Assembly: GCF_002775205.1 (NCBI RefSeq)
Contig: NC_036453.1
Location: forward strand, 31,287,213 to 31,351,212
From: Xiphophorus maculatus
Taxonomy: Eukaryota; Chordata; Actinopteri; Cyprinodontiformes; Poeciliidae
Length of the DNA stretch: 64,000 nt
Direction of reading: 5' to 3'
Shown: positions 1 through 60,790 of the stretch, in pieces
Numbering within the stretch: the stretch's first letter is position 1
Layout of the letters: each line of letters starts with the position of its first letter
The notes under the pieces: generated by a model
Databases searched by the model: none
Told to the model about the DNA's origin: nothing
The model's input: the letters and a program-made list of their open reading frames with translations, nothing else
Position numbers and translations under genes: made by a program

Positions 1-2392
1 AGACCTGGGGGTGCAGGATTTGGACCTGGGGGTGCAGGATTTGGGCCTAGTGGTGGAGGAGTTGGACCAGGGGGTGCAGGATTTGGGCCTGGGGGTGCAG
101 GATTTGGACCTAGTGGTGCAGGAGTTGGACCTGGGGGTGCAGGATTTGGGCCTAGTGGTGGAGGAGTTGGACCTGGGGGTGCAGGATTTGGGCCTGGGGG
201 TGCAGGATTTGGACCTAGTGGTGCAGGAGTTGGACCTGGGGGTGCAGGATTTGGGCCTAGTGGTACAGGAGTTGGACCAGGGGGTGCAGGATTTGGGCCT
301 AGTGGTGGAGGAGTTGGACCTGGGGGTGCAGGATTTGGGCCTAGTGGTGGAGGAGTTGGACCTGGGGGTGCAGGAGTTGGACCTGGTGGGACAGGAGTTG
401 GACCTGGGGGTGCAGGATTTGGGCCTAGTGGTACAGGAGTTGGACCAGGGGGTGCAGGATTTGGGCCTAGTGGTGGAGGAGTTGGACCTGGGGGTGCAGG
501 ATTTGGGCCTAGTGGTGGAGGAGTTGGACCTGGGGGTGCAGGAGTTGGACCTGGTGGGACAGGAGTTGGACCTGGTGGTGCAGGAGTTAGACCTGGTGGG
601 ACAGGGGTTGGACCTGGTGGTGCAGGAGTTAGACCTGGTGGAACTCTTCCAGGCGGAGGTGATGAATAAATTATAATATATCCAACAATTTTCAAATGTT
701 TGTCTATTGTGCCTTGCTAAAACGTTCATTATCCTTCTACTTGCACAGATTTTGTCATGTTACAACCACAAATCTTTATGTTTTTTATTGGAATTTTATT
801 TATTAGTCAAACTAAGATTGGCACATATTTGTAAAGTGGAAGGAGCACACCATTTTAAAATTTGTTTTGAAACACAAACTTGAAAACTGATGTGCATGTG
901 TATTCAGCCCCATTTGCTCTTCTTCCTTCACGTGTGACAAATTAATATTCTTTTAAATGACTTTTTTTTGGCTTTTTGAAAGTAGCTGGACAGGAAAATG
1001 GGTTATGAGAGGTGGGAAAACATGCAGCAAAGGTCAACAGGCCTTAAAAAACAGTATTTTAATTTTACTAAAATTCAGTAAACCTTTAAGGTTTAAAAAC
1101 AAAATGTCTGTTATTTGTCATATCGTGGCATTTTTTAATTCTAAATGCATAATGTGTTTTTCTATTAACTGCAAATTTTCTCTGCAGGTCCGATATTACC
1201 TCAGACTGGTGCAGGAGCTGGGGGAAAAAGTGGTGGTAAAGCATCGAAACAAGTTCCAGGTACATGCCGTATGAGCTCAATCAATCTGTTACAAAACCGT
1301 TACACAAAACCACCTCAAATTTATCACTATTTAATTTATTATTATTGACAATAATTTTTCCTTCAGATATTCTTAATGTAATTATGAATTACACAGGCAT
1401 TGGCGTACCGGGACTTTATCAGGGTGGATTTGTTCCAGGTCAAGGTGTGTTGTAGAGCTATATGTAACATAGAGTATCGTGTACTGCAGAGAAAAAAATA
1501 AATATTGGTCTTTCAATGTCCTCTGATAAGGTTTTGGAGGCCGAGGGGTTCTCCCTGGAGTAGTCACTGGATCTGGAGTTGGGCCTCAAACTGGTACGTA
1601 AATGTACTTTGGTTATAAACGATGTGAGAATTTGTTTTGGCACAACATACAAGTCCAACAATAAAACTTATCTTTTTGCAGGGACTGGAGTACTTGGTCA
1701 AGGCGGGGTAGGACAAGGAAGCAGTAAGTGTCTCAAGGTCTTAAAACTACAAGTTAATAAGTACAAATGTTACTAATTTGATTTCAAAATATAAATACTA
1801 GGTTCCCATTTATGTAATTCTGTATTTTGTCTTTCTCGTCATAGATGGTCGAGGACAAACATTATCTGGAGTTTTTCATGGTTACCCTCTAATATCACCA
1901 AAATCAGGTACATCAGGACCTCTAAATGCAGAAAAACATTTCTATGAAAACAATAATACATGCAAAGGACATACTGAATAAACTAAATCTTTATTCAAAC
2001 ATTTCTGTTTTGATTTAGGGACAGGAAAATCAAAGAAACCAGGCAAAGCTGCAGCCAAATATGGTAACTCAAATCTGTAATCTGTAACTTACTGTGGAAA
2101 GCTGACTGGCTGCATTGTTTTGGTAAACGTTATTTTTCTTGAGGTGGTGCTGGAGCTGGAGGAAGCCATCTTGGTCAGGCAGGTGCCTTAGGCACTGGAG
2201 GACTTCCTGGAGGTGGCATAGGTGTCGTCCCTGGAGCAGGAAGTGGAGTCAGACCAGGCGGAGTCGGACCAGGCGGAGTTGGACCGGGCGGAGTCGGACC
2301 AGGAGGAGTCGGACCAGGCGGAGTCGGACCAGGAGGAGTCGGACCAGGCGGAGTCGGACCAGGAGGAGTCGTTCCAGGTGGAGTTGGACCAG
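1..2392 (+). other. eln: Elastin exon block 1: long hydrophobic repeat exon plus short exons
   Basis: Exon 1-658 runs in frame 1 and encodes repeats of about 14 residues such as [14 protein letters not shown]; it is cut by the window start and ends at donor 659. Seven exons of 42-72 nt and one of 249 nt follow. Exon 1188-1259 ([18 protein letters not shown]) and exon 2019-2063 ([16 protein letters not shown]) supply paired lysines and are the likely cross-link exons here. Exon 2144-2392 ends in a run of GGVGP pentapeptides with a 15-nt period. Exon 1845-1907 is atypical for elastin ([20 protein letters not shown]). Introns 659-1187 and 2393-2580 hold nothing I recognise. Confidence 0.9.
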
Positions 2393-5300
2393 GTATGGGC
2401 AGCAGCATACATGATTTCTTTCCTGCTCTTTGAGGGAAACAAATTGCAAAACACAACTAACAAAGATATTTTTCTTCTGTTAATGATCTTATCAATAATT
2501 CCTTTAATATTTTATTTAATAGCACACTTCAATTTCAAGTACACGATTCAGTAAATAAATTGATATTACATTTTACACAGGTTATGGTCCCGGCTCAGCA
2601 AAAGCACGCAAATATGGTGAGACATGCCTTCATGCAACTAACATCTAAGGTATGTGGATTTTATCATTTTAAAGCAATAAACTGTCTTAATCTTTGATGG
2701 TGGTGTAGGTCCTGGAACTGGAGTTGGTCCCAGCACAGCAGGGGGCGGTCTAGGAGGACAACTAGGAGGCGGACTTGGCCAGGGTACAGGGTTGGGGCCT
2801 GGATCAGGGCTTGGTATTGGCACAGGAGGTGCTGGGACTGGATATGTCCCTGGGGGAATTGGACCAGGTGGAGTCAGACCAGGTGGTGCTGGGACTGGTT
2901 ATGGACCAGGAGGAGTTGGACCTGGTGGTGCTGGGACTGGATATGGACCTGGGGGTAAGTCAGCAGATATGGTATAATTTCCCTACCCATTAACAGAACA
3001 TGATCACTTTAATTCCCATTCACTGAAAACCCGTCTGATTCTATATGTTTATTTCAGGATATGATGCCAGTGCCAAAGCTCGTAAATATGGTAAGAATTC
3101 TCCAAAACTGTAAGATATGGATGAATAAAATATTTCTGCAACTGTTTCCTAAAATTAATAAAACATTATGATTCTGCACATTGTAGGCATGCTAAGTGGA
3201 GCACTTGGAGGGCCAGGATTAGGACCAACTGGAGTTGGGCCGGGTGGAGTTGGTCCAGGTGGCGCTGGTACAGGATACGGACCAGGAGGAGTTGGGACTG
3301 GTGGAATTAGACCTGGTGGAGTTGGGCCGGGTGGAGTTGGACCTGGAGGAGTTGGACCTGGTGGTGTTGGTACAGGATATGGGCCAGGAGGAGTTGGGGC
3401 TGGTGGAATTGTACCTGGTGGTGCTGGGACTGGATATGGACCTGGTGGAGTTGGACCTGGTGGTGCTGGGACTGGATATGGACCTGGTGGAGTTGGACCT
3501 GGTGGTGCTGGGACTGGATATGGACCTGGTGGAGTTGGACCTGGTGGTGCTGGGACTGGATATGGACCTGGGGGAGTTGTACCTAGTGGTGCTGGGACTG
3601 GATATGGACCTGGTGGTGTTGGGACTGGATATGGACCTGGGGGAGTGGGACCTGGTGGAGTTGGACCTGGTGGTGCTGGGACTGGATATGGACCTGGGGG
3701 AGTTGTACCTAGTGGTGCTGGGACTGGATATGGACCTGGTGGTGTTGGGACTGGATATGGACCTGGGGGAGTGGGACCTGGTGGTGTTGGACCAGGTGGC
3801 GCTGGTACAGGATACGGGCCAGGAGGAGTTGGACCTGGTGGTGCTGGTACTGGATATGGACCTGGCAGAATTGGCACTGGAACAGGATCTGGGGGTAAAT
3901 CAGCAGATATGGTTATAGAGTGAAATTGTAAACATAATTTCCCTTTATAACTATCACTTAACAGAACATGATCACTTTAATTCCCATTCATTGAAAACCC
4001 GTCTGATTCTATATGTTTATTTCAGGATATGATGCCAGTGCCAAAGCTCGTAAATATGGTAAGAATTCTCCAAAACTGTAAGATATGGATGTATAAAATA
4101 TTTCTGCAACTGTTTCCTAAAATTAATAAAACATTATGATTCTGCACATTGTAGGCATGCTAAGTGGAGCACTTGGAGGGCCAGGATTAGGACCAGCTGG
4201 AGTTGGGCCGGGTGGAGTTGGTCCAGGTGGCGCTGGTACAGGATACGGACCAGGAGGAGTTGGGACTGGTGGAATTAGACCTGGTGGAGTTGGGCCGGGT
4301 GGAGTTGGACCTGGAGGAGTTGGACCTGGTGGTGTTGGTGCAGGTGGTGCTGGTACAGGATACGGGCCAGGAGGAGTTGGGGCTGGTGGAATTAGACCTG
4401 GTGGAGTTGGGCCGGGTGGAGTTGGACCTGGAGGAGTTGGACCTGGTGGTGTTGGTGCAGGTGGTGCTGGTACAGGATACGGGCCAGGAGGAGTTGTACC
4501 TGGTGGTGCTGGGACTGGATATGGACCCGGAGGAGTGGGACCAGGTGGTGTTGGACCAGGTGGTGCTGGGACTGGATATGGGCCCGGAGGAGTGGGACCA
4601 GATGGTGTTGGACCAGGTGGTGCTGGGACTGGATATGGACCTGGCAGAATTGGCACTGGAACAGGATCTGGGGGTAAATCAGCAGATACGGTTATAAAGT
4701 GAAATTGTAAACATAATTTCCCTTTATAACTATCACTTAACAGAACATGATCACTTTAATTCCCATTCATTGAAAACCCGTCTGATTCTATATGTTTATT
4801 TCAGGATATGATGCCAGTGCCAAAGCTCGTAAATATGGTAAGAATTCTCCAAAACTGTAAGATATGGATGTATAAAATATTTCTGCAACTGTTTCCTAAA
4901 ATTAATAAAACATTATGATTCTGCACATTGTAGGCATGCTAAGTGGAGCACTTGGAGGGCCAGGATTAGGACCAGCTGGAGTTGTACCTGGTGGTGCCGG
5001 TACAGGCTATGGACCCGGTGGCGTTGTCCCTGGTGGAGCTGGTACAGGCTATGGACCCGGTGGCGTTGTCCCTGGTGGAGCTGGTACAGGCTATGGACCC
5101 GGTGGCGTTGTCCCTGGTGGAGCTGGTACAGGCTATGGACCTGGTGGCGTTGTCCCTGGTGGAGCTGGTACAGGCTATGGACCTGGTGGCGTTGTCCCTG
5201 GTGGAGCTGGTACAGGCTATGGACCCAGTGGCGTTGTCCCTGGTGGAGCTGGTACAGGCTATGGACCTGGTGGCGTTGTCCCTGGTGGAGCTGGTACAGG

Positions 5301-8300
5301 CTATGGACCCAGTGGCGTTGTCCCTGGTGGAGCTGGTACAGGCTATGGACCCGGAGGTAAAATAAAAAACACAAACATATACTCTAATACATTTAACTTG
5401 GTTATTATAGTTCGTAAAGTACTTATGATTTATTTGCAGGATATGCAGGAGCAAAAGCAAATAAATATGGTGAGGCAACCTTCTAAATATCCAATATCTG
5501 ATTAACCTTGTAGTAAACTTGTGATTTCATTGTTTCTACCAACAGATAAAGTCTGATCAATTAATCCTGCAGGCAGTAATTGATTGGACATTACTTCATG
5601 TTATCAAATTGTTGTTCAGTAATATCTATCTTCAATTACATCAGTTTTTTGATCAATGAATTCTCTTTACAGGACTCCCTAGAGGTGTGGGAGGTGCCCT
5701 GGGAGCAGGAGGACTTGGGGTTGGAACTGGGCCAGGGTCTGGACTTGGAGTTGGTGGAGGGCTTCCTGGAGGAGGTGGGGTGGCAACTGGTGGTGGGCCT
5801 GGATCAGGACTCGGGACAGGAGGGACACCTGGTTCTGGCATTGGAACAGGAGGTTTAGCAGGAGGCTTTGGACCAGGCAGTGCCGGAGGTAAAAATAGAA
5901 AAAGAAAATTGTCCAAATGTCTGAAACAACTTTGGAATTAGCCTTCTTTTTTTTTTTTTTTTTACCAGTTTTGTGTCATCATTTTGTACTCGTGTCAAAT
6001 TCTTCCTTATTAGGCTTGAGCAGTGAAAGCGCTGTGAAGGCCTATTGTATTTCAAATAAATTAACTTGGAGGCCTAAACATATACAAAACTAACCAAACT
6101 TGACCCAAAACTGTCCCCCAACTGAAATTTTTATATTTTGATGTGAGACAGGTCAACTGGTAAATCATACAGAGCTGAAATTTGGTTTGTAGGTAGAACC
6201 CACTGAAACAAGAAAAAAAGGTTGTATGCCCTAAACCCAACAGGAAGCATTAAAGAGTCATTTTTGAGTTTTTATACATGTTGAACTTTAACAAACTGAT
6301 TTTCAGCAATCAGCTTCAAATTTGGTCAATATGGCCTTACGGCATTAGGGATTAAAGTTATCAAAAGCTTGAGTTTTCATGCTTAGGTCTTCACAAATGG
6401 CCTAATTTCAAAACGCTGTAACTTTCACATTGAAAGCCCTAATTGCACCAAACTTGGTATTAGTCATCCATGTTGGATGCCCGATGATACTATGTAGTCA
6501 TATGCTGAGGTCATCTAAACCCCACCCCTTCAGAACAGGAAGTGACATTTTTTCCATCTCCGACCCCATTCACCTAATCACGATAATCTTGTGTCAGAAG
6601 ACAGCTAACACATTGGTCTAACTTGTTGTAAAGTGCAAAGAGTTTTCAGTGGGTGGTGTGGCAAAGACAGCTGTTAAGCTTTTGCCATACATTTGGCTCT
6701 AAATTCCACATATTTCAACCGAGCTGCACCAAACTGACGATGATTGGTCCTAATCTACCCTCCAAAAAGAAGGCAGTACAAAATTTCATGGGCGTAGCCT
6801 AATTCCTCCACAGTGGCGTTAGAAATCTTTTTAAAAAATTAGCCCCCAAATTAGCCCAAGGTATTAGCCCTTTGACAGACAATCACAATATTACGGTACA
6901 CATGTGCAACTTATCACGACCAACAAAAAAACTCTCTGGTAGTCATGGTTCAATTCAAATCCCACAAAAAGTCATTCATTTTGAATCAAAGACACCATTT
7001 TGTCCGTTTTAAGCACATTGTATATAACCAAACTCCTCCTACAACTTTTCACATACAAACTTCAGAATCACTCAATAGTCTTTAGGCATTGACGATCAAA
7101 AGTTATCAAAAGCTTTGTGCTACATCAAAGCCAAGCCAAAATCTGACCATTCACCATAACATATCAGGATGTAATACCTTCCACTTACAAGAATACAATT
7201 ATATGAAACCATATGTGTCAAAACAGACCAATACTGATCACACTCACCACCACAAAGCCACATTAGTCCCTCCCCTTTTGAACAGGAAGTCACCTTAAAT
7301 AAACTGATAATGCTGATGTGTAAATGTTTTAATTCTCTGCTTTATTTCTTAGGATATCCTGGTGGTGCAAAGTCTCTCAAATATGGTGGGATTTAAGTTA
7401 TTTGACTCATTTAAAAAGTGAAAACAATTGTATGTTAGATTAGCTTTTGACTTTAACTGTAACTATGATGTTATGTTTAATTGTTTATATGACAAATATG
7501 AATATGTTGACTAGTTATAAGTTAGCTGTAAACTCTCTTCTCCACAGGACTTCCTGGGGGAGGAGGATATCCTGGATCTGGATTTGGGGGTCCAGGAACT
7601 GGAGCAACTCTTGATGTTGGCAGAGGATATGGACCTGGAAGTGGCTCGGTAGCTGGAACTGGTTATGTGCCAGGAGGAGGTTATGGTGTAGGCCCAGGAT
7701 CTGGATATGGGACAGGTGAAGATGGCATTTTAATCTCTTGAATACATTCAGATTAGTTACAACTTGAAACCTGTTGAGGTAAAGTTTCTCTCTTATGCAC
7801 AGGTCATGGGCCAGGATCTAAACCCTCTAAATACGGTATTTATTTTCAATAAATTAATTTTTTGGGAATGTTTGAAATTGCAGGAAATGCTGACTTTTTT
7901 TTCTGATACATTTTTTGCCAAAGGTCAAGTTGGAACAGGTGGTGGCGGAGTGCTTGGAGGGGGAGCCGGAAGAGGTAATGAGTTCTTTCTTTTGGTGTTT
8001 GTGTGCTGGTGAATTTTTTTTGTTCTCTTAAGTTAATTAAAAACACTTTTTGGGGTAATCTGAATTTTTTTTCCCTTATTCTTTGGTTTGATGTTCTTAT
8101 AGGTGGCTATGGACCTGGATCTGGAGGTCAAGGTTAGTTTGGTCTGTTTTATATCGAAAAGATAAACTTTAAACACTAAAACTCATTTAAACAATTAATT
8201 CTCTTTTATGGAGCTAAGAGATTATGGGTTGAAATTATTTTACAAATATGCTGCCATAGGACGACTGAAAAGAATAGGCGTATTTTATGCAGCTTTTCTC

Positions 8301-11300
8301 AGACATTATCAGACGGCAGACAGTCAAATATAAAAACTTTGGACATTTTCATTTTGGCAACTGTTTTCTGCCATAGCAAAGTGGTAAAAGTGTTTTTGAC
8401 AACTCTCATAAGCAGTCAATAAAATCATATCAGCTACTTTGAACTTACTGAATTCAGTCAACAATAATCACAGTTACTTCTTTTGTCCATTCCAGACTTG
8501 AATGACAGTTTAGGAATGAAACAAAACATCAAAACAAACCAAAAAAATTATAATGTGCAACAAAAAAAAAGTTTTCAAATTCAGATTAAAATGTTATCCT
8601 GTTTTGTGGTCAGAAAAAATACCTTGGTCATCTGTTCATGTTTTCTTACAATTTCCTTGTGAAATCAAGTTAAGTTTTTCTCTGTCTACAAGCATTGGAA
8701 CAGGGAGTAAAGCAGCTAAGTTTGGTAAACAGACAGAGGAAAATCAATCAATTAAATAGGATTTAAAAGGAATTTGTTAATGACTATCTCTTCTTTTCAA
8801 CATTTAAGGCCAGACAGGCGTTGTTGTACCTGGGGCAGGAGCAGGAACCGGTGTTGATGTAAATGGAACCGTCAGTGGTGCAAGACCAACACCTCAACCT
8901 GGTGGTGAGCTTATTCTTAATGTTTATAAGTTTAAAAACATTATTGTGGCCACTTTAGATCAATAATTGGATTATCTATATCTGATAAATCACATAAATT
9001 GGATCAGAAGGACGACCTGGATCTCCAGATGGCACATCAACACCAGCAGGAGAAGGTATCTGTAATATTTTTGTTTCTACTTTAATTCCTCAGATTAAGT
9101 TTCTCTTATTCATAATTAAGAAGTTTTAAATTATTTTTTAACTAATTGTCCAGGTGATGGTGGTGCAAGCACTACATTAGAGGGCTCTGGGATTCCTGGA
9201 GGAGATGGTGTGTGAAACTTGAAATAATTTATATTAAATGAGATCAATCTGTCTAGATTAAAAGGTTGATTTCATATAAATTAATATTAAAGCAGGACAG
9301 ACTGGTGTAGGTGGAAAACCACTGGGAGGCGAGGGAGATAGTGCAAATGGAACCAGTATCCCCATCATTGGAGCAGCACCAGGTAATTCCAACCAAAATA
9401 CTCATCAAATATGCTAAAGTGTTAAAAATATTATTGTGCAAATGCTAGACATTATCTTAAAGCTACGTTTCATTTACAGTGAACCCTCGCCATATCGCGG
9501 TTCACCTTTCACGGCCTCGCTGCTTCATGGATTTGTTTGTGCAGTTTTTTTTCACACTGCATTGTATTCTGCGTCCTGATTGGCTAAACAGTCTCCACGC
9601 TTCTTCTCTACCCGTGTGCCAATAACGTTACAGTACTTAAATACACTGCCTGGCCAAAAAAAAAGTCGCCACCAAAAAATGGTCACACTCTCTAATATTT
9701 TGTTGGACCGCCTTTAGCTTTGATTACAGCCTGCATTCGCTGTGGCATTGTTTCAATAAGCTTCTGCAGTGTCACAAGATTTATTTCCATCCAGTGTTGC
9801 ATTAATCTTTCACCAAGATCTTGTATTGATGATGGGAGAGTCTGACCACTGCGCAAAGCCTTCTCCAGCACATCCCAAAGATTCTCAACCTGCCTCTCTT
9901 CTTACCCTGATGCGCCCATCACTCTGGAACAGGGTAAATCTGGACACATCAGACCACATGACCCTCTTCCATTCCTCCAGAGTCCAATCTCTATGCTCCC
10001 TAGCAAACTGAAGCCTTTTTTTCTGGTTAGCCTTACTGATTAGAGGTTTTCTTACGGCTACACAGCTGTTCAATCCCAACCCCTTGAGTTCCCTTCGCAT
10101 TGTGCGTGTGGAAATGCTTTTGCGTTCACAATTAAACATACTCCTGAGTTCTGATATGTTTTTCTTCGATTTGATTTGACCAAACGTTTAAGTAATCGCC
10201 GATCACAATCATTCAGGATTTTTTTCTGACCACATTTCTTCCTGGAAGACGATGGTTCCCCACCATCCTTCCAGTTTTTAATGATGCGTTGGACAGTTCT
10301 TAACCCAATTCTAGTAGTTTCTGCAATCTCCTTAGATGTTTTCTCTGCTTGATGCATGCCAATGATTTGACCCTTCTTAAACTGCTGTATAATAATTGTA
10401 AAAAATAAAGGTAAATACTTTACGGATTTCGTCTATCACGGGTTCTTTTCGGAAACCAACCCCCGCACAAAACGAGGGTTTACTGTATACCCATTTAATC
10501 ATCATTCTAAAATAGGACTTAATGGGACCACAGTTCCAGGTGAGATTCTTTTACAATTTGTAAAAGTGACGTCAGGTTATATTGTAATCAGTCTTTGTGG
10601 GCGTCTATAATTTCACTTTAAATAAGCAAGGTTTTCATAAACTTCTCAAACAGCATCCCCATGTGACAATAAAAGGACACTTTAATTTCATTACTCATTC
10701 AATCTGAGTAAAATAAGATTTACATTTTATGTGTAAAATTGGTAAATAAGATAAAGTAACGTTTAGTTTGTGTTGGTTTAATGTTTGGCTATAAAGTTGT
10801 TCCAGGAACATTTACATAAAAGAGCAAGAATCAGAAAAACTTTGGATTAATATATTAAGCTGTTTATCTTTTTGACTCTCATATCATCATAGGTTTGATA
10901 AGTTTACCTCATGCACTAATGACTCAATTTAGAAATGTTATGTTTTAACAAAAGATAATTAAAACATATTAGTTGTCTTAAGATTATATGTTTCCTGGCC
11001 GTTACTGATTTCCAATTTTCTTTGAGGTCTGATCTGCTACTTCCAACTTCAACTAACTTATATTTTTTATTTCTAAAATCTTTAACAAATAAAAGAGAAA
11101 AATGTTATGTGAGGGTCCTTTTATAAATGTAATAATTTTGAATCCAAAGAAAATGAAGGAATCACTGGATCACGTTAAAAACTTTATCTGATTGGTTTTT
11201 AAAATGTTCATTGTTCATGGTTCATTGATGCATTTATACAACAAAAATATTGGGATTTCTAAATTAAGATGCACTTAATGAATAGTAGGGAAACATTATT

Positions 11301-14300
11301 TTATTTTTGTTATATTTGTCCAAAGATTAGGGTAGTTTATAAACAAAATGGATGATTTATTGGTGCATCTTATAATTGTATATATTGTAAATAATACATC
11401 TCCACACTTTGGTGACATCCTTCACCAAAGTGTGGAGATGTATATAATCTATATAATGTATATTTTATTTTTTAAGTACAAAAATAAACAAAAACAAAAG
11501 TATTACACCAAAACCAAGGCAAACGCTGATCCTGTCAGTAATTATTTCAAATTTTCTGATTTAATGATTTTGAAAATGTGTGAAAAAAAACCCTTTAAAA
11601 GTTCCAAGAAGAAGAATTTAAATTTGAATCCTGAATAATAATAACATGTTGTTTTCTCTTTACAGCTGGTGGTTCACCTGTACAAACAGATGGTAGGTAT
11701 TACTTCATGAACTGATTTCATCCACTGTGTACACTATTGGTAAGTGCATATTTTTAAAAGTATTTCTTGTTTTAAACAGGGGGAACAGAAGTTGGTGAGT
11801 TGAACCATCAGATATTAGGCTCACATTTTCAAACATACCTGTTCATAGTTCATAAAATATTGTCACTTTGGTATCTCGTTTTAAATTCTCTCTAAAATTC
11901 AGGTGGAACAGGACTTCCCCCTGGAGGTGAGAGTTAATCATTGCAGTGTATTCCAATTGTTTCATATGACCGAAACCAGGAAGAAAACTTGCTTTGATTT
12001 AATTTTCTGATTTATGCAGGTCCTGGAGGTGATCTCTCCGGGGGAGGACTCCAACAAGTCAGTCCTCTCAAACCTCCAGGTGAATAAAATGAGTCTGGTT
12101 TAGGCACAACAAACATTATTGTTACCTTTAAACTATTCTTATTCCCTTTTCTGCACTAAAACATGAGAAGAAATACAAGGACAAGATGAGTAAGAAATAA
12201 AATAAAATAAGAGAACAGAGTTATAGTAGTTATATCCCTAGAATATCTTCACATTTTATCAAATTACAATCAAAAACATTATTTATGTTATTGCAATTTT
12301 TTGTGGCAGATCAACAAAGTAGATTATAACCGTAAAGTGAAAAGTAATTTATAAATGCCAATATTGTTATTAATAAAATTCTGAAAAAAGTGCCTTACAT
12401 TTACACTCAAATCTTTTAAAATTTTAATAAGATCAATGTTTTAAAGGTAAACAGATTCCACACGTTATTCATGTCTGAGTAAATAGAGTCAGAGGGGAGT
12501 AGAGTACCTAAAACGTTTACTCAAGTAAGAGTAGCAGTACTTCAACATATTTTTACTCAAGTAAAAGTAAAAAGTAGCCATCCAAACATTTATCAAGTAA
12601 GAATAAAAAAGTATCTGATAAAAAGTCTACTCAACTACTGAGTAACAGATTAAATGTCACTCATTTAATATTTAAAATTTACATCGTCAGACGGAGCAAA
12701 ATATAAAGTTAAGTGGAAATTTTGGTATTTTAAGGATAAAAATAGCAATAATTCATATAAGGAACAAAAAAATGACAAAATGATTTTTTTCTGCAGGTGT
12801 GTGTCTGGTGAATTTGTGGTTATAACATGTTTGTTTTCCATTCAATGGGTAGAAAATCCAGAAATTTTACTACAGCAAGAGATATAAAATTACTCAAGTA
12901 AAAGAAAAAAGTAAAAGTACTCCTAAAAGTAAAGTTTTTCAAAAAAAAGTTAGTCAAGTAAATGTAATTGAGTATATGAAACTAGTTACTACCCAACTCT
13001 GAATACAGGTAATCAGAAAAACAGCCTGGAAACTATGGAGGAGCAACATCTATGCTGTTCGGTCATCAAATAGATTTTGTAATGTTTTTGGGTTTGTCTT
13101 ACAGGTGTTCCAAGAGGCGACACACCAGGTGAGGGAGATGGGGAAGGAGGTCCTGATGGAGAAAAAGATGGAAAGCCCAGGAGTCCGATCGGCGCCGGGG
13201 GAACTGGAGACGTTTCTGGAACACAAACAGGAGTGGGAAGAGGCGACAGTCCAGCCACTGGAAGTGAAATCAGACCAGCAGGAGGAACAGCGAAACCACC
13301 TCAAGGTCCTGATTTGATCAACTATACAACTAACAAACGAATGGACTAAAGTTACAGGAAAAAAAAAATCAGAACAAATTCTGGAAAAAATTTTTTAAAT
13401 TATTTTATAGGTGTTGGACCAGGTGGAGTCGGTGGGGTGGCAGGAGTTGGGATGGTACCTGGAGCTGGTGGGATAGCAACAGAAGTCGTAAAACCTGGAA
13501 AAAGTGAGCAGCAGCCATGTTTTATCTTCAGAATGTTTTTCATTCATCTGTAATTTACTGACATTTAATTTATACATCTCACTTATCGTCTGCTGCAGGC
13601 TACGGTGCAGGTGGAGTTTTACCAGGTGGAGGTACGTAAACTTGCACTCCAACGTTAGAAAACGCTTGAACTGTGGTACAGCATGTACGTTCTGTCCAAC
13701 TCAGGTCCACGGTACCCTGGTGCTGGTGGCTATGGTACTGGTACAGGAGGTTTTGGTGTAGGTCCAGGTGGATATGGTACTGGGTCTGGTGGATTTGGGA
13801 GACCCATTGGCGGTTCTGGCAGTGTTGGGACTCCTGGGGTTGGAACGGGCCCTGGAGGTGTAGCACCAGGCTCAGGTAGCGTCAGCGTTGGGCTGGGTGG
13901 ATATGGTGGTGGCATCGGACCTGATGGTAGGTTCACTAGTACAAACATTTAAAAAATAAAAACAAGTAAAACAGTTGGATTTGTGTTTAGTTTAAAAAGA
14001 CTCTAACAGGGAACCTGTTTATAATTTGTGTTAACCAGGTTCTAGATATGGCACCGGTTCCGGACCTGGGAAACCCCCAAAAAGTATGAAAGCACAGAAT
14101 AAGTGCAGATTATAATGGGAGGAAACTGGAACTGAACAGGATTTAATTTCAGGTTATGGAGCTGGAGCTGGCCTTGGCAGCTATGGAACTGGATCAGGGG
14201 GAGTTGGTCCAGGTGGCTTGGTGCCTGGTGGTGGTTACGGACCCAGCGGTACTGGTCAAGCCGGACTTGGTCCTGGTTCTGCTGGCACAGGACTGGGAGG

Positions 14301-17300
14301 TGTTGGAACTAGACCAGGTACCTTTGGTGGTGTTGGTTCTGGTGGAGTAGGGCCTATTCCTGGAGTTTATACTGGAGGTCAAGGACTGGGAGCAAGAAAA
14401 CCGTCAAAAACAGGTAGAATAATAAATACATTTAATAATTAAATACTGTGACACATTTCAAAACGTTAAACTTTGTTGACAGGCTACGGAACATCACTTG
14501 GTGGAGCTGGATATGGACAAGGTAATTTAATTTTATTCATTTATTTTAAAAGGGAAAAAGCACATTGATGAACGTGATTAAACCCATGAATGAGCCAGTT
14601 TTCCCTCACATGTTGATAACAGGGTTTCCTCCAGTTTACCATAAGCCTGGCGGGCCACCAGGCTTGCCTCCCCCCCACCAGACTTAGCATCATTGTTTAA
14701 TTTAAACAGGCAGCAACTGCACTGTCCCTGCACCTGCCCTTTGACCCCACAAGATATTATTTCCCAATCATGATGCCTGCTCATGTACTATTAACATTTT
14801 TTAACATGAAAACATATTGGGCTGCTGGTGGACTGTGTTAGTGCCCCTACCAATGGGCCTAGCAGGTTTTCTGGTATGAAACTAAAATAAAGAAAATTCA
14901 CATTATGCTGATAAAGAGAAAAAGAAACTAAAAATGTATAAGAAAAACTAAGGTTGAAGCCAAACATCATGGATTCAATAAATATAGTAGGGCGGGAGGC
15001 AGAGGGACACGTTTTTTCAAAACTTATGTTATACTGTCAGGACATCATGACATTTTAATAAATATGTAAAATAAATATATGATTTTTAAAAAATGTTAAC
15101 TCTTGCATTAAAAAGCATCTAAAGTTTATTTCTTTCAAAGTGTCAAGCTAGAACAGAATGTGTATCGCCATTTTTCAGGTGCAGCAGGAGGAGTCGCACC
15201 TGGTGGAGCTGGAACTGGACCTGGCAGATATGGACCTGGTTCTTTTGGGACTGGAGGAGTCGCACCTGGTGGAGCTGGGACTGGACCTGGCAGATATGGA
15301 CCTGGTTCTTTTGGGACTGGAGGAGTCGCACCTGGTGGAGCTGGGACTGGAACTGGAGGCTTTGGACCAGCTGGTGCTGGAACTGGAGGCTTTGGACCAG
15401 CTGGTGCTGGAACTGGAGGCTTTGGACCAGCTGGTGCTGGAACTGGAGGCTTTGGACCAGCTGGTGCTGGAACTGGAGGCTTTGGACCTGCTGGTGCTGG
15501 AACTGGAGGCTTTGGACCTGCTGGGGTTGGGATTGCAACTGGTTTTGGACCTGCTGGTCAAGGACTAGGAAAAAGGAAACCTAAATCTGGTATGTAGGGT
15601 TCACACAGGTAGACATAAAAATGGGTTTGATTTAAAAAAAATAATAAAACACAGTTTGATTTTTATCTTTTCATCTCTGCACATCCAGGTTATGGAGGAA
15701 CTGGTTATGGTCCAGGTAATCCAGTTTAAGTTTAATCAATAATGAATTGTTTATATCTATATTTATATCTTTAATGCACTCTTTGTCCTGACAGGAGGTT
15801 CAGGAGGAGCCGGTCTTGGTGGAACTGGAGCTAGACCTGGAGGATACAGCCCAGGTGGCACTGGGGGTGCTGGATCCACTGGTTTTGGTTCTGGAGGAAC
15901 TGGAGGAGGCAGCTTTGGTACTGGAGGAACTGGAGGAGGCAGCTTTGGTCCTGCAGGAACTGGAGGAACTGGAGGGACTGGAGGAGGCAGCTTTGCTCCT
16001 GCAGGAACTGGAGGGACTGGAAGAGGCAGCTTTGCTCCTGCAGGAACTGGAGGGACTGGAGGAGGAAGCTTTGGACCTGGTGGCCAAGCACTTGGATCAA
16101 GAAAGTCTGGATATGGTTCAACTTTGGGTGCAACTGGATATGGACAAGGTAGATTTCTCTAATATGCCGTTTTAAAAACAAAACATTAAAAAGGTTGAGG
16201 TTATACTTTGCCGATGGTGCTGGTCTTTTACCCCCTACATCCATAGCTTTACCGTCAAAAAGGACAAACAAATTATAGTGGGTTAAAACAGGGAAATTCT
16301 GAAACATCTAACTAAGAACACTGTCTCACAGTAATTCCTGACAGTGTTCTGGGAATCCGGTCTGAACAATGTCTGCAACTGACCTTTCACACAAGCATTG
16401 AATAACGAGACAAACCAACCATGTAAATGTTGACATTTCATTACTGAGTTTGCTCCAGACAATTTCCTGCTTTGGGCTGGGATCTGGATGCATGCTACAT
16501 TTACAGACATGACATAATAAAGCCTCATTGAGTGTGCTGATCATTCATATACATTGGTCGCTTTTGCCTCATTTTTTTAAATATTAAGAATATGATTAAT
16601 CTGTTATGTAAAATCACCTGTTTTTGAGCTTCACATCATGTTTATGTTATTCCTTCATCAAAACATACCTGGAGAGTTGCTTTGACTCTTTCATGCATGT
16701 TTGAGAAATCCTTGAATCTCCTGTTGCAACCATTCAAGCCAAAATGCCTGCTGTCTCAGAGCATTCCTCCCCTTGACTCAGCTCCTTCAGACTAGTGGCA
16801 GCAACAATTAGCAAACACCTGATGGAACTGAGTTTAACATACAAGCTGCTGCAAGTGCAACACTCCTGAAAACCTTCTTAAAGGCTTCATGGAGAAACAT
16901 TGTTCTGATGACATGCTGAAGGCAGATTGTCAAAAAGAGCAGAAGCTTCTTAAAGAGACAGAGGCCCAATTTCAAGGTGTCAAATTCCTTTTAAGTCATG
17001 TTTGATATATACATCATTTAGCATCAGATTGTGCTACAAAATGAGAAGATGTGCCTGCAAAAGACTGCACCTTAAATTTAAAACTATTTATTTTCTTTTT
17101 ATTTCTTGTGTAAATGATCTGATTTTTTACTACACCAACTGAGTTGCCTGTAATTTATCTAAACAAGATTACTTACCTCTGGCCTTCTTGTGCAGGAGTT
17201 GGAAGCCGTCCAGGTCCAGGAACAGGAGGATATGTAGGAGGGGGACCAGGCAGGATACAACTTTCAAAAAGACATTGCTCTTAAACTTAGTGTTCTTCAG

Positions 17301-19136
17301 ATTTTATTTGCTATAAAATGCTGTATTACACAGAGAAATGTATGTCACTTACTCACCTCAACTTGCTTGTTCAGGTACTGCAGCTGGAGGTGCAGGAGGT
17401 ACTGGAGGAGGTCAAACAGTTGGAGGAGTAGGCGGTCTACCAGGTTCGTACCACAGAGCTCTGAAAAATAAAAACTAATTTATTATTAACCACAATATAA
17501 AAATGAACAATAAAAACACATTCAGATGAAGCAAAAAATCGTAACTGTCTAACAGTTCAGGCGAAACAGTTTTAAATTGTAATGTGTATGTTACACCAGG
17601 AGGGGGAGCTGTGCCTGGATATGGCGGAGTGGCAGGAGGAGGCTATCCAGGTAAAATGACCTTCACCGGATAACAGGCATTCTTATAAAGAAATGTTTCA
17701 GTCTTGAAGTTGCTGTTTGTGTCGTCTTAAAAATGACTTAAAAACGCCTCGATGAAACTATTGTTAACAGAATCTATTGTTAACTGTGACTTTTCCTGCT
17801 ATTGTTCCCTAGGATATGCAGGGACCGGACAAAAATGTAAGAAAACTTACTTTGTACTCTAATTGAGCCACAGCATTCAGCATTCACAGAGTCTATATTA
17901 ACTGAAAGCAAGCAGCTTCCTTTAGACGTTTGGTTTAGCACAACATATATTAATTTTAGTTACCTTTTAAAAACCATTTTTTTTAAAAACTTGGATTTTT
18001 CTGTGGAAATTAGCAAAATCACTATTTTTATTTTTCACAACTTTCAGCCAAAGCACAGAAGGCAGCCAAATATGCAGCCATGCAGGGGTTCCTTGGAACT
18101 GGAGGCTACAGAGGTAACAAAGATCAAATTATATAACCTGTTGTTCCAGAAGTTATTGTGATAATATTGTTTTTGAGACCATTTTCAAGTAATATAATGG
18201 TAGCCAAATAATGCAGGATCACATTTTCAAAGATCAATAAACTTTAAATTCTAATGAAGATTTAACAATGGAACTGGAAGACATTTTAAATATACAAATA
18301 AAATGGATACTGAGGTCTCTGTAAACAAAATTGTTCTTAAAAAAAAAGCTAGCGGAGACTGAAAACTTTTGTTATGCAGTTTTTTGTAGAAAGAAAGAAA
18401 AGAGAAAAATGATAAATAATGCAAATGGAAATTATTGAGCTTGTTTTAATTCAGCGTGCAATTCATTGATTTATTGATTTAAGAAAGGGTTGGAGCTCCC
18501 TTAGGCCTTCAGAACTGGCTTACTGTCTCTAGAGAAATAACACATTTTTGGAAATAAAAGTGTCACTGTTGACATAAACACGGCATTTTCATCCACACAA
18601 CTACCTTTCAACTGATATTTCCTCTTTTGAGTGGTTACTGTGTGAAAACCACAGTAGTTTTGAAGTTTCTGAAAAACTTCTCCTTCAGGAAGTCAGCTTC
18701 AGACGCCTAAATGCATTAAATTGTTACCATTTGATTTACGTCAACAAGTAAACAGAACAGATGTACCTAATAAAGTGGCCAGTAAATGCATATCTATTCA
18801 AACAAAAGAATTATCACAGGATATCCTGCTTTCTTTCTTGAGAAAAACATGTTGCAATTAGTTATTCAGCTACTAAAGAAACAGAAACTTTGTGACTTTT
18901 CATTACAATCAAGATATTTGACGTCTCGTATGAAAAGAAGTAAAATCTATTTGTCACAGAATAAGGAAAAGTATTATATGTCTAAGACATATGATAATAC
19001 GTCTTAGACATATTATCTAAGACGTATTATGTCTTAGATAATACGTCTTTGTACATCAGCTGGAGAGTAACTGTCTTTGTTCCTGCTATTAGCTGGAGGC
19101 TGTCAGGGAAACTACTGTGGCCGAAGGAGGAAGTGA
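1..19136 (+). CDS. eln: Elastin (tropoelastin), 5' truncated by the window edge
   Basis: Secreted monomer of elastic fibres, cross-linked through lysines by lysyl oxidase. I placed 48 exons by matching AG/GT borders to one open frame: 1-658, 1188-1259, 1397-1444, 1531-1593, 1682-1723, 1845-1907, 2019-2063, 2144-2392, 2581-2616, 2709-2954, 3058-3090, 3187-3894, 4026-4058, 4155-4673, 4805-4837, 4934-5356, 5440-5469, 5673-5888, 7353-7385, 7548-7715, 7803-7835, 7924-7974, 8103-8132, 8809-8904, 9008-9055, 9154-9207, 9296-9382, 10516-10539, 11666-11692, 11780-11794, 11903-11926, 12020-12079, 13105-13305, 13411-13503, 13599-13631, 13705-13926, 14039-14083, 14153-14413, 14483-14521, 15179-15589, 15689-15715, 15795-16148, 17196-17249, 17375-17443, 17600-17650, 17813-17836, 18048-18113, 19093-19136. 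All internal exons are multiples of 3 and introns are phase 1, as in known elastins. About 2,086 residues are visible, far longer than mammalian tropoelastin (roughly 750). Signal peptide and first exons lie before base 1. Confidence 0.96.
2581..5469 (+). repeat. eln: Tandemly duplicated exon-intron cassettes of elastin
   Basis: Four units each pair a large Gly-rich exon with a 30-33 nt cross-link exon: 2709-2954 with 3058-3090, 3187-3894 with 4026-4058, 4155-4673 with 4805-4837, and 4934-5356 with 5440-5469. Three of the small exons encode the same [12 protein letters not shown]. The intron after each of these three is 96 bp (3091-3186, 4059-4154, 4838-4933) and almost identical; introns 3895-4025 and 4674-4804 are both 131 bp and nearly identical. 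The three later large exons all open with the same 15 or so residues ([14 protein letters not shown]). This is recent tandem duplication including introns. Confidence 0.95.
4979..5356 (+). repeat. eln: 42-bp coding minisatellite in an elastin exon
   Basis: A 14-residue unit, [14 protein letters not shown], is repeated about nine times with only a few differences (CCC/CCT, and GGT to AGT giving Ser for Gly). The near identity at third codon positions points to recent expansion or gene conversion rather than old selection. The exon stays in frame and ends at donor 5357. Confidence 0.93.
5673..8132 (+). other. eln: Elastin exon block 3: alternating repeat and small exons
   Basis: Exon 5673-5888 (Gly/Leu/Val-rich, 72 codons) is followed by cross-link exon 7353-7385 ([12 protein letters not shown]), hydrophobic exon 7548-7715, cross-link exon 7803-7835 ([12 protein letters not shown]), 7924-7974 and 8103-8132. 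The Lys-Tyr-Gly or Lys-Phe-Gly ending is shared by most of this gene's short cross-link exons. Donor 7386 (GTGGGA) is weak; the others are ordinary. Confidence 0.9.
5889..7352 (+). repeat. Large elastin intron filled by an old degenerate interspersed repeat
   Basis: The 1.46-kb intron holds a poly(T) run near 5947-5963 and two related segments about 745 bp apart. Around 6341 and 7086 both read GGCATT, then a few differences, then AAAGTTATCAAAAGCTT. Around 6527 and 7271 both contain CCCCTT followed by GAACAGGAAGT. No transposase reading frame is visible. It looks like a decayed repeat with an internal duplication; family not identified. Confidence 0.55.
8692..8724 (+). pseudogene. Probable dead elastin cross-link exon
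   Basis: A 33-nt stretch translates in the expected phase as [12 protein letters not shown], a cross-link exon by length (33 nt like its siblings), composition and placement between repeat exons. It has a pyrimidine tract (8675-8686) and a donor (GTAAAC at 8725). The base before it is A, so the border is CAA/G where CAG/G is expected. The nearest AG (8691-8692) would start the exon one base late, giving 32 nt and a frameshift. I infer that it is skipped; a sequence error or polymorphism at 8691 is the alternative. Confidence 0.6.
9477..10485. mobile_element. pogo/Tigger-like terminal repeats enclosing a Tc1 fragment
   Basis: The left end reads CAGTGAACCCTCG and the right end is the inverse of CAGTAAACCCTCG, a 12/13 match, flanked on both sides by TA (9475-9476 and 10486-10487), the target duplication of the Tc1/mariner/pogo superfamily. 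The short outer sequences have no transposase of their own. A different element sits inside, so this is nested. It lies in the elastin intron between exons 9296-9382 and 10516-10539. Confidence 0.75.
9644..10400 (-). mobile_element. Defective Tc1-like transposon, internally deleted
   Basis: The left end CACTGCCTGGCC preceded by TA is a Tc1-type terminus. On the - strand, 10357-10139 encodes the N-terminal helix-turn-helix part (segments such as [20 protein letters not shown]) with a frameshift before the next part. 10139-9885 continues through [15 protein letters not shown], containing the first catalytic Asp. 9880-9720 encodes the end of the protein ([17 protein letters not shown]). The segment between, with the rest of the DDE site, is missing and the far terminal repeat is not recognisable, so it is non-autonomous. 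Confidence 0.85.
10540..11665 (+). other. Elastin intron with a perfect hairpin
   Basis: This 1.1-kb AT-rich intron contains a perfect inverted repeat, 11394-11415 against 11422-11443 (22-nt stem, 6-nt loop). I see no coding sequence or transposase in the remainder. Confidence 0.6.
12490..13001. mobile_element. hAT-like MITE, CAGAG...CTCTG family
   Basis: About 510 bp in an elastin intron, starting CAGAGGGGAGTAG and ending in the inverse of CAGAGTTGGGTAGTAACTAG. It is packed with the motif ACTCAAGTAAAAGTA, typical of a common fish MITE. No clear 8-bp target duplication remains. Related copies are at about 43044-43531 and, truncated, about 21950-22164. Confidence 0.7.
13599..16148 (+). other. 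eln: Elastin exon block 5: Tyr-rich and FGPAG repeat exons
   Basis: Exons 13599-13631, 13705-13926, 14039-14083 (ends GKPPKS), 14153-14413 (ends ARKPSKTG), 14483-14521, 15179-15589 (six copies of a 30-nt unit [10 protein letters not shown], ends GKRKPKSG), 15689-15715 and 15795-16148. Here the Lys/Arg cross-link motif is of the KP type and sits at the 3' end of the large exon. In 15795-16148 the motif SRKSGYGS is followed directly by GATGYGQG with no intron, whereas the preceding pair has an intron at that point. Intron 14522-15178 holds nothing I recognise. Confidence 0.9.
16149..17195 (+). other. Long elastin intron without recognisable content
   Basis: About 1 kb between exons 15795-16148 and 17196-17249. 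Only short frames occur on either strand, with no family resemblance. No terminal repeats seen. Confidence 0.5.
17196..19136 (+). other. eln: Elastin 3' exons and conserved C-terminal tail
   Basis: Exons 17196-17249, 17375-17443, 17600-17650, 17813-17836 and 18048-18113 lead to terminal exon 19093-19136. Exon 18048-18113 encodes [15 protein letters not shown], a KA-type cross-link domain with K-x3-K then AAKYAA spacing. The last exon encodes [14 protein letters not shown] then TGA: two Cys four residues apart and a basic end, the hallmark of the tropoelastin C-terminus used in microfibril and cell-surface binding. Exon 17196-17249 appears to use a GC donor at 17250. Confidence 0.93.
18960..19048. 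repeat. Cluster of overlapping inverted repeats before the last elastin exon
   Basis: The words GTCTTAGA, TCTAAGAC, AATACGTCTTAGA and its inverse TCTAAGACGTATT alternate here, so several hairpins can form. It ends 44 bp before the terminal exon at 19093, covering the branch-point region. Confidence 0.8.
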
Positions 19137-26699: not shown

Positions 26700-34528
<7,829 letters not shown>

Positions 34529-40200: not shown

Positions 40201-43200
40201 GTGACTTAAAAAAATTAACTAATTTTTTATTGTATAACTTCACAAATGGACGCCTCACTCCTGTTGTTGTCTTAAAGCATCATTTACTATGTGTGATTAA
40301 TTGTCACAGATTCATGGAGTTGGGCTTGTTGAAGGCCACAGCAGTAACTGGTTGCTTCATGATGCTGAAATGTGGATATGCTGAGCATTAATATGACGTT
40401 CATATCTTCGTTCTGCAGGATCAGGACAAGGAGTACGTGGGTTTTGCTACGTTGCCCAGCCAGGTTCACAGAAAGACGGTGAAGAAAGGATTCACCTTTA
40501 CGCTGATGGTGGCAGGTGAATATTTTAAAAAATAACCTAATTGTTCAGCTAGAATAACACAAGGCAGTTCCAGTCAGAAGTTTCCATCATTTTTTACTTT
40601 TATCGATTTATCTGATCCACTTTTTTCCTCTGGTGCCTTGATTTTACTTCAGTGTTGATGTGGCTTTGGGATTGTTGTGTCAGTGTTTTGACACACAGCT
40701 GTTGCTTCAAGTTAAAGTTGAAAAAATTGCAGGCAGTTCTTCATCTTAATCATTTATTTATCAGCTTTGTAAAATGTATAAGTGGCTCTGGAAGAAAAAC
40801 AGTCCACAGCATGATTCTACCACCACCGTGCTCAACAGCTGCCCCAGTATTCTTGGTCAGAATATCAATGTTTGTCTTATCTGACTTGGAGACGTTTGTT
40901 CAGAAAACATTTAGTTTGTCCAGCTTTGTGTTGACCTCTATGACTTTGGTTCCACATCTTTTGTTTTGGATTTTCTTCTGGATTATTTTGGCTTTTATTT
41001 TTTAATAACTCTCATTTTCTGCCATAACATTCGCTACAGTTTTTAAATGCACTCTTGGAAAAACTCCTTAATTTTTCGTTGTCTGACAAAACTAATAGTG
41101 AAGTTTTAGGTCATAACTATCAATACATTTGGAGAGAAAAATGGTGAAACCGGAAAGCACATACGGAGATGACAACATATTTAGCTTCCAAACTAAATTT
41201 TTAATTTGAAAGTCAAATATTCAGTTTGTAAATATCAGTTTGGGAGTAAAAGCTTGAAAATAAATAAATAATTATGCTAATGATTCCAATCTTGTGGACG
41301 AAAACCTCATATAATCTGTCCCAAAACAGATTAAATTGCAGTTATTTTTTACTTAATAAAAAATAATAATAAGGAAGATGTGATGTGGTCTGATTTGAGT
41401 ATTTTTAAAGTGACATAGAGGAATGTGTGTTCCTGTTATTGTAGGAGAGACTGGACTCGGCAAATCCACACTAATAAACAGTTTGTTCCTCACTGACCTC
41501 TACAGAGACAGAAAAGTTCCCAACGCTGAGGGTGAGTTCACCTTCATCATTTATCCAACCATTCAGTTCTTCTTACAGAGTTTTTAACTCTGCATGCATT
41601 GCTACCTTTGGCTAATCTGCAGAGCGGATCAGTCAAACGGTCGACATCATCAAGCACACCATCGGCATCGAGGAGAAAGGGATCAAACTGAGGCTCTCCA
41701 TCATAGACACGCCAGGCTTCGGAGATGCTGTCAACAACACAGCAAGGTGAGCGGACATGTTAAAACAACATCACACTGCTGCAGCCCGAACAAAAACATT
41801 AATAAGCACCTAAATATCCAAGACCTCACCTGCAAAAATCTACATTAATCACACATATATACAAATGTAATCTCATTAAAACATATATTTACCAGAATGC
41901 AAAAACACAGAATATTAGCAAGTAATTTTGAACAAATATCTTCATTTGTAGTAAGACAAAACTAACTCATAGGTAACATTTCAGTAAAATGTATGAGCTT
42001 GTTTTAAGTAAATAATTACTTAATATTGATGAAAAAGTAACAGATCCACTGATAGATTATTTCACTGATAACATGGGGAAAATATCTTATAAGTGAAATA
42101 ATCTGCCAAGGGAACTAGAACTTTTTTATTAATATTAAGAAATTATTGACTCTAAACAAGCTCTTATATCTTGCTGACAAGTTAATTAAGAGTTGGTTTT
42201 GCCTTATATTAAGTGTACTAAGATACTTCCACTATAAACTAGACCAAAAATACTTGCTAAGATTTTGTATTTTTGCAGTGAATAATGAAAAACAATCAGC
42301 TAAAATAACCATATGATTTATTTGATATTTTTCTTACTTTTTTCCTCATTTATTTTCCAGTTATGTATTTATTTTCCTTTCTCTGCATTATATTATAATT
42401 ATACAAATACTTTAAAAACTATTTTGTTGCTTATGCTAAATTTTGACAGGTTTGTTAAACGTCACTTTGTATCACGGAGTGCGTATAAAATAAATAATCG
42501 TGAAACTGCTTGCATTAAAAACATCTCCTGTAGGTTTGCTGCTCTAATCACAGATATTTTATGTGTTTGCATCAGCTGGAAGCACGTAGAAGACTACATT
42601 GACCAGCAGTTCGAGCAGTATTTCAGAGATGAGAGCGGGCTGAACAGGAAGAACATTCAGGACAACAGAGTCCACTGCCTGCTCTACTTCATCTCTCCTT
42701 TTGGCCATGGGTACATTCCTACTTCTGCATCTAAAGATGTTTTACAGCCTCAGCTGCATCCATGCAACATGTTCAGAGTTTAATCATGTTTTGTTTTGCC
42801 TCTGCTGTCAGTTTAAGGCCAATCGACGTGGAGTGCATGAAGGCTTTGCATGAAAAAGTCAACATTATTCCTTTATTGGCCAAAGCCGATAGCCTGACAC
42901 AAGCAGAAGTCCACAGCAAGAAATTAAAGGTACAATAATTTATAAATTCAGTAGTTTTCTTTACTCAAACCTAAAAATAATCCAGGATGTAACTATTAAC
43001 CTTGTAACATTAAAAACTGATTGAACAGTTTATTTCTTCATCATGGTCAGTAACTAGTTAAATTTACTCAATTACATTTACTTGAGTAACTGTTTCTTTT
43101 TTAAATGTACTTTTAGGAGTATTTTTGCTACTTTTTTCTTTTACTTAAGTATTTTATTATGATGTATTGCTACTTTTACTTTAGTAAAATTTCTGCATTC

Positions 43201-60100: not shown

Positions 60101-60790
60101 GTGCACCTCTCTGGTTCCCGCTCTGGAAAATAAAATGCAATGTAAACATGAACAGATCCTCAAACTTAAATTAACTGCACCATTCAAATACTTAAACTAA
60201 CCCTCCAGGTCTCCTCTTGCCCTCCATCCCCCTCAGGTCCTCTATCGTCACGCCATTGGGGCGCGGCTGAGGTGTAGGTGGTGCTTGATGGGGAGCCAGT
60301 GCATGATGGGAGCCAGAGCCATTGGTACTAATAGAAGCTGGGTACTGAATCTGCATCTGAGGCTGCGATAGGCCCGGCTTTACATCTATCAGCTGCTGAG
60401 CAGGTTCCATTTTGATCTGGGAGGGGCACAACAGGTGATGAGACACTGACTGCTGCTGCTGCGGCGCCGTAGAGGAAGTGCTCTCTTTTTTGGGAGGCAG
60501 GGGGCTGCTGAGCGTAGTGGCAGCTGCAGCGATCGGCGTACTGAGGGGAAGGGGGGGGACAGAGGGTGTCGCATTGACGACCGGGACCATCGGGATGACG
60601 GCGATGGGAACTTGTGAAGGTGGGAGAGAAGGCGGCGGAGGGGCGGGAGGATGATGCGGCTGCTGGCGAAGAGCATCATCAGCCCAAGCAGTGTGGTTGG
60701 CTCTGACAGGCAGAGGTGAGGCGACAAGCTCCACATGTTTAGTCTCAGCCTCCGTCTTGATGGCTTCCTTCTCCTTAAACAGCTCATCCT
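51101..60790 (-). CDS. mnt: MNT, MAX-binding bHLH-leucine zipper repressor, first exon(s) outside the window
   Basis: Partner of MAX that binds CACGTG E-boxes and represses MYC targets through SIN3. Exons on the - strand: 60790-60202, 60122-60081, 59531-59420, 53293-53101, 51903-51101; phases agree, 578 residues visible. Exon 1 visible: Pro-rich region ending EGKRRPGG. Exons 2 and 3: basic region and HLH, GTREVHNKLEKNRRAHLKEC with the E-R-R contacts, then KTSNLSVLRSALRYIQ. Exon 4: zipper, LKRKEKEFEHEMERLAREK and IDRVLRQTIQPEDDQASTS. Exon 5: Pro/His/Ala-rich C-terminus ending VTMVTVPTFPVSTLKLA. The SIN3-interaction N-terminus (around SIETLLEAA in mammals) is not in the window. Confidence 0.95.
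52222..52882. mobile_element. Two abutting MITE fragments in an MNT intron
   Basis: 52222-52640 matches the ACGATAA family (AGGCCTGTAACGATAAC start; TTAACACTTAAACTGGAAGA inside), seen also near 18180-18480, 24640-24970, 62080-62350 and 63380-63800. 52640-52882 is the right half of the TTTTTGCAGTG family, with CTGGCAGATTATTTCC and GATTTTACATTTTTGCAGTG. Confidence 0.6.
53294..59419 (-). other. Large MNT intron
   Basis: A 6.1-kb intron between the HLH and zipper exons. I see no coding exon of another gene. Less AT-rich stretches occur near 53700-53860, 56580-56700 (with a CACGTG E-box at 56606-56611) and 57650-57900; conservation would be needed to give them meaning. Confidence 0.5.

Follow-up and report, generated by a model that had tools for sequence, protein, structure and literature searches.

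The window analysed here is a stretch of 64,000 nucleotides of Xiphophorus maculatus DNA, and positions below are counted from its first letter. It contains the 3′ portion of an elastin gene and, downstream of it, a group of neighbouring genes:

1 to 19136, plus strand: 3′ part of an elastin gene of elnb type, 48 modelled exons, recognised by its open frame, KxxK cross-link motifs and C-terminus; the gene extends 5′ beyond the window
30711 to 34528, plus strand: pieces of a limk1 gene, not the a-type paralogue, from identities to fish LIMK1 proteins and a kinase Pfam match
42304 to 42783: septin, from a Pfam match, downstream of the elastin gene
59279 to 60842, minus strand: helix-loop-helix gene (Pfam HLH at 59279–59665), possibly mnt

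That the gene is a fish elastin, as the initial annotation had proposed, is borne out by the protein that can be read from it. Exons were assembled from open Gly-rich stretches with splice-like flanks, mainly from phase-1 candidates, so that the phase-1 pattern of the 47 introns is partly a matter of design; the single frame of 2086 residues, open without a stop across all 48 joined exons, is not. Hydrophobic exons alternate with exons carrying Lys cross-link motifs (SAKARKY, KPPK and KAAK) between these phase-1 introns, an elastin arrangement in which the phase was partly an assembly criterion. The last exon starts at 19093, and the chain ends as elastins do, in a Cys pair and a basic tail, here GRRRK, ahead of the TGA stop codon at 19134–19136. 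One further exon, 17196–17249, was ended at a GC-type donor (CAG/GCAGGA); its boundary is uncertain, and this donor was excluded from the comparison of donors given below.

Teleost ElnB is recognised by extended exons and a low hydrophobicity of 33.4 ± 3.6% (PMC12733013). The longest exons of the model measure 708, 519, 423, 411 and 354 nt, and its hydrophobic residues make up 32.3% with Pro counted or 21.1% without, figures that refer to a partial protein and to a residue set that may differ from that of PMC12733013. The neighbourhood points the same way, as elnb is described as adjoining limk1b (PMC4735684) and an eln–septin–limk1 synteny has been described for teleosts (PMC12733013). A protein search with limk1 gave 1014 matches with E values of 0.001 or better, the top four being from Poecilia, Ameca, Xiphophorus and Fundulus. 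Identities of a 135-residue kinase piece were computed for 20 of the best 120 of these proteins: they reach 99.3% with one Xiphophorus couchianus LIMK1-like protein and 97.8% with a Poecilia formosa protein, compared to 77.8% with the X. couchianus protein named LIMK1a, while a protein named LIMK1b from Iconisemion gives 83.7%, aligned over 86 residues only. Since the piece is by identity not limk1a, its most likely identity is limk1b, and the fish is poeciliid-like, judging from these matches. With this gene and the septin alongside, and sharing with teleost ElnB the long exons, KA- and KP-like cross-links and Cys-containing basic C-terminus as well as the synteny, the elastin gene is very likely elnb. 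Protein searches with the joined elastin itself gave no match, either from the second exon on (region 1090–1320, 7993 candidates scored) or with a shorter joined form (region 300–1215, 7987 candidates scored), Gly-rich words having likely swamped both lists. Because the same database yields fish proteins for limk1, we do not take these empty searches as absence of relatives.

Within the modelled chain lies a domain of unusual composition, whose last exon contains two RGD motifs:

8809 to 13305, plus strand: acidic hydrophilic domain, 212 residues in ten modelled exons, from acidic positions, hydropathy and sequons
13105 to 13305, plus strand: RGD exon, long form, 67 residues, with an acceptor of 7.2 bits, supporting codon log-odds and GC, and a poor distal donor
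13105 to 13128, plus strand: RGD exon, short form, 24 nt, G/VPRGDTP/G, ended by the donor CAG/GTGAGG and with precedents for its size
13113 to 13121, plus strand: first RGD (PRGDTP), retained with any of three in-phase donors (13129, 13264, 13306)
13239 to 13247, plus strand: second RGD (GRGDSPA), present only with donor 13264 or 13306

The domain (residues 1278–1489) contains 22 of the 29 Asp and Glu residues of the modelled elastin and all three of its N-glycosylation sequons, each of them NGT, and it lacks Tyr. Its mean hydropathy is −0.58 as against −0.06 elsewhere in the protein, falling to −1.09 in the RGD exon, where 25% of residues are charged compared to 4.3% outside the 212-residue domain. 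The initial annotation had placed the motifs in a flexible Gly/Asp/Glu-rich stretch; the charge and the Gly-richness are there, and the flexibility is a presumption from them. At the sequence level, a query of 213 residues covering the domain matched no Pfam family at E 0.01, and thus no FNIII fold, and the solved structures returned chance matches only (E 0.18 and 1.5). The domain is probably disordered, interrupting a chain that is elastin-like elsewhere, and would likely be a place where a short motif is exposed. When the RGD exon was compared with the other elastin exons, the best local match (2144–2392) scored 30, and codon-shuffled copies, compared with the hydrophilic exons alone, scored up to 31; as shuffled copies match equally well, we claim no exon origin for it.

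The 9-mer AGAGGCGAC, which encodes Arg-Gly-Asp, occurs exactly twice on the plus strand of the whole window, at 13113–13121 and 13239–13247, and both occurrences can be read in the frame that the intron phases impose, as had been claimed; the second would be translated only with a weak donor. In this frame the exon begins GVPRGDTPG and ends KPPQ, and its acceptor is good (7.2 bits). Over 13131–13304 the codon log-odds are +42.7 bits in frame, while the two remaining forward frames give −102 and −120 and no base shuffle out of 2000 exceeds −9.1; together with the stop-free 2086-residue model, this upholds the proposed reading frame. One reverse-strand frame also scores positively (+16.1), which can be explained by GGN/CCN symmetry. 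Among 7150 intronic windows of 174 bases, 269 are open and the best scores −60.5. The GC content of the exon is 0.565 against 0.25–0.28 in the flanking introns and stays exon-like right to 13305, and the part beyond the first possible donor contains no stop in its 58 codons, of which 17 encode Gly. The running coding score has its maximum at the codon at 13308 and then drops, so the exon end proposed initially agrees with the end of the coding signal. The stretch 13105–13305 thus looks protein-coding.

Where the exon ends in the mRNA is a different matter, as three in-phase donors compete for it:

13129 to 13134, plus strand: internal donor GTGAGG, strong by generic matrix and U1 pairing, in phase
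13264 to 13269, plus strand: internal donor GTGAAA, weak by donor scores, in phase; it would keep both RGDs
13306 to 13311, plus strand: distal donor GTCCTG, the weakest on three donor measures

We compared these on a generic matrix, on a matrix from the gene itself and by U1 pairing, taking as reference the 45 further GT donors in the model, a comparison that is somewhat circular in that the model exons were partly selected on splice score. The distal donor (AAG/GTCCTG) scores −3.7 on the generic matrix, below the range of −0.2 to 6.7 for the 45 others, and on the gene's own matrix and in U1 pairing it likewise comes below all of them; its C at position +3 is found in none of the 45. The proximal donor (CAG/GTGAGG) has the highest generic score (7.1) and the strongest U1 pairing (−11.6 kcal/mol, compared to −4.1 for 13306), though it is ordinary on the gene's own matrix (4.6, with 16 of the 45 better). 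The donor at 13264 (GAA/GTGAAA) is weak at −0.7, yet above 13306. Among 445 internal exonic GTs, only two outscore the proposed end of their own exon on both matrices, and these are 13129 and 13264, both in the RGD exon. So while the frame and coding signal of the exon initially drawn at 13105–13305 hold, its 3′ end is not confirmed. Use of 13129 would join the first RGD to the next exon (from 13411) and drop 59 residues including GRGDSPA. The first RGD is therefore robust to the choice of donor, and the fibronectin-like GRGDSPA is doubtful because it needs one of the poor donors, 13264 or 13306, to be used over a strong one upstream. The donor and coding data are compatible with alternative donors as well as with the distal part having been lost recently.

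The explanation we consider best, and hold tentatively at rather less than even confidence, is that this is a real elnb exon in an acidic, non-elastic domain, that its 5′ splice sites compete, and that its RGD or RGDs serve as an additional integrin ligand. It is supported by the open frame, the coding signal over 13107–13305, the make-up of the domain, the donor scores and the limk1 neighbour, and is weakened by the distal donor coming last of all on three measures and by a single RGD being not unlikely from composition. The cell binding of engineered RGD chains and the reported role of elnb, both described below, also speak for it; the inequality of RGD sites and the reduced cell spreading on such chains speak against it.

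It is quite possible, at something like one chance in three, that only the short exon 13105–13128 is used, and that 13129–13305 is a former part of the exon that recently became intron, either as GGTGAG arose or as the distal donor decayed, leaving the protein with one PRGDTP and no fibronectin-like motif. The superiority of 13129 by generic score and U1 pairing (−11.6 versus −4.1 kcal/mol) and a C at +3 seen in 0 of 45 other donors are what this account would lead one to expect, and 24-nt exons occur twice nearby in the model, at 10516–10539 and 11903–11926. Set against it are the 58 stop-free codons with 17 Gly, the +42.7 bits and the exon-like GC up to 13305, which speak for a long and recent coding use, as well as the fact that 13129 is not outstanding on the gene's own matrix (16 of 45 better).

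A different kind of doubt concerns whether the motifs mean anything. In shuffles of the residues, at least one RGD appears with a probability of 0.10–0.16 and at least two with 0.004–0.012, whereas GRGDSP appears with 0.0003–0.0006; one RGD is thus unsurprising by composition and GRGDSP is surprising (P below 0.001). The two motifs sit in two copies of a near-repeat:

13112 to 13128, plus strand: 17-base near-repeat, copy 1, AAGAGGCGACACACCAG
13238 to 13254, plus strand: 17-base near-repeat, copy 2, AAGAGGCGACAGTCCAG

The copies share AAGAGGCGACAnnCCAG and are identical at 15 of 17 bases, and none of 2000 shuffles was as good. Because the near-repeat beats every shuffle, the two RGD motifs are probably the product of one short local duplication; they are then not independent, and the probability for at least two overstates the surprise. 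It is conceivable, though rather unlikely, that both RGDs are perhaps translated and have no special function, being by-products of a fast-drifting linker rich in Gly, Arg and Asp, and that cells attach by way of GRRRK at the C-terminus and of other sites. The 0.10–0.16 chance of one RGD, the second copy lying within the shared 17 bases and the further GRG motifs of the same protein (VGRGYG, GGRGVL and TGRGSF) all agree with such drift; the rarity of GRGDSP in the same shuffles (P below 0.001) does not, nor does the position of both motifs inside the one domain where most of the protein's acidic residues are concentrated. Finally, a wrong frame, with the exon read as a 104-codon open frame, is scarcely credible: the alternative frame is also open (13003–13317), but its codon use scores −102 bits and it violates the phase-1 rule of the model's other introns.

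To see how an RGD in an elastin exon acting as an integrin ligand would compare with what is known, it is useful to consider several related systems. For mammalian tropoelastin, which belongs to the same family and has the same kind of basic C-terminal tail, a review states that a canonical integrin motif was not found and that integrins are bound through domains 14–18 and 36 (PMC7947355, which prints Arg-Glu-Asp, apparently a slip). This agrees with the statement, made in the initial annotation, that mammalian tropoelastin has no RGD and binds integrins at other sites, and it differs from the fish elastin exon with its two RGDs. In other proteins of the elastic fibre, fibrillin-1 and fibulin-5, RGD does serve integrins (PMC4031001), so that there the motif is on microfibril or bridging proteins and here on the elastin chain itself. 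RGD sites are described as not equivalent to one another, and for fibrillin-1 the flanking folded domains are of importance (PMC4031001).

Elastin-like chains with RGD have also been made artificially. The engineered polymer [RGD-V6]20 carries the motif as VGRGD, near to the natural GVGRGDSP, though it is man-made, has 20 copies and is without an acidic domain. Its maximum binding of N2a cells is about 96% of that of fibronectin (PMC3507755); at 5 µM the RGD chain binds at 88% of the fibronectin level compared to 43% for a chain without RGD, and spreading is 42.9% compared to 84.3% on fibronectin (PMC3507755). Since such engineered chains bind N2a cells, an RGD within an elastin chain can work, and integrin binding by the exon is plausible from its sequence.

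For the second motif the natural comparison is with fibronectin itself. The cell-binding loop of the tenth type III module carries GRGDSPA, and the fibronectin-like context proposed at the outset is indeed present in the letters, over six or seven residues; its presence in the mRNA hinges on a poor donor. The loop is folded in fibronectin, whereas in the elastin exon it would lie in a presumably disordered linker. As neither a Pfam family nor a meaningful structure match was found for the domain, the likeness reads as a short match and not as shared ancestry. A literature search found no report of RGD in a fish elastin, though one may exist elsewhere. The string 'rgd' has 0 occurrences in the main texts of PMC12733013, PMC4735684 and PMC8875079, a count over main text only, so that RGD in other ElnB proteins, whose sequences may stand in figures or supplements, is possible.

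Returning to the explanation by competing splice sites, the strong proximal donor at 13129 would give a mini-exon of 24 nt with one RGD, and the weak distal donor would add up to 59 more residues and the second, fibronectin-like RGD; we infer that more than one donor may be used. The RGD would then act as an extra ligand for integrins that read it, of the alpha-v and alpha5beta1 types, if it is exposed, bound and able to affect the cell as we suppose. The target cells might be those depositing elastin B, whether smooth muscle or precursor cells, and the motif would add to the basic cell-binding tail at the C-terminus (here GRRRK). For elnb itself, a role in steering outflow-tract cells to smooth muscle with involvement of yap has been reported (PMC4735684), and a smooth muscle role is also given in PMC8875079. 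If elastin B had an integrin site, there would be a receptor-level route for this role, a link that fits and that we put forward as no more than suggestive.

A more far-reaching version, which we regard as improbable, is that elastin B has an integrin-binding domain controlled by splicing, the strong donor giving one RGD and the weak donor, if used in the bulbus arteriosus or during a certain stage, giving two, one of them of fibronectin grade. Were this so, integrin signalling to cells would not be confined to the microfibril partners of elastin but would come from the elastin chain too, and the step, involving yap, in which elastin B can direct cells of the outflow tract towards smooth muscle would have a molecular reason. 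A natural RGD elastin would also have, as part of the gene product, the motif that is otherwise engineered into elastin-like polymers.

Several other features of the elastin gene were seen along the way. Between 3058 and 5356 a pair of exons, one for cross-links and one hydrophobic with GMLSGALGG, appears by eye in three similar tandem copies with introns much alike, probably from a recent tandem duplication inside elnb. Within another intron, the minus-strand frame 10070–10432 matches helix-turn-helix Pfam models; the surrounding 9480–10440, with bounds set by eye, is probably a transposable element remnant, and our guess is that it is Tc1-like. The last intron has at 18970–19045 an AT-rich stretch that by eye is repeated and palindromic (gtcttagacatattat...).
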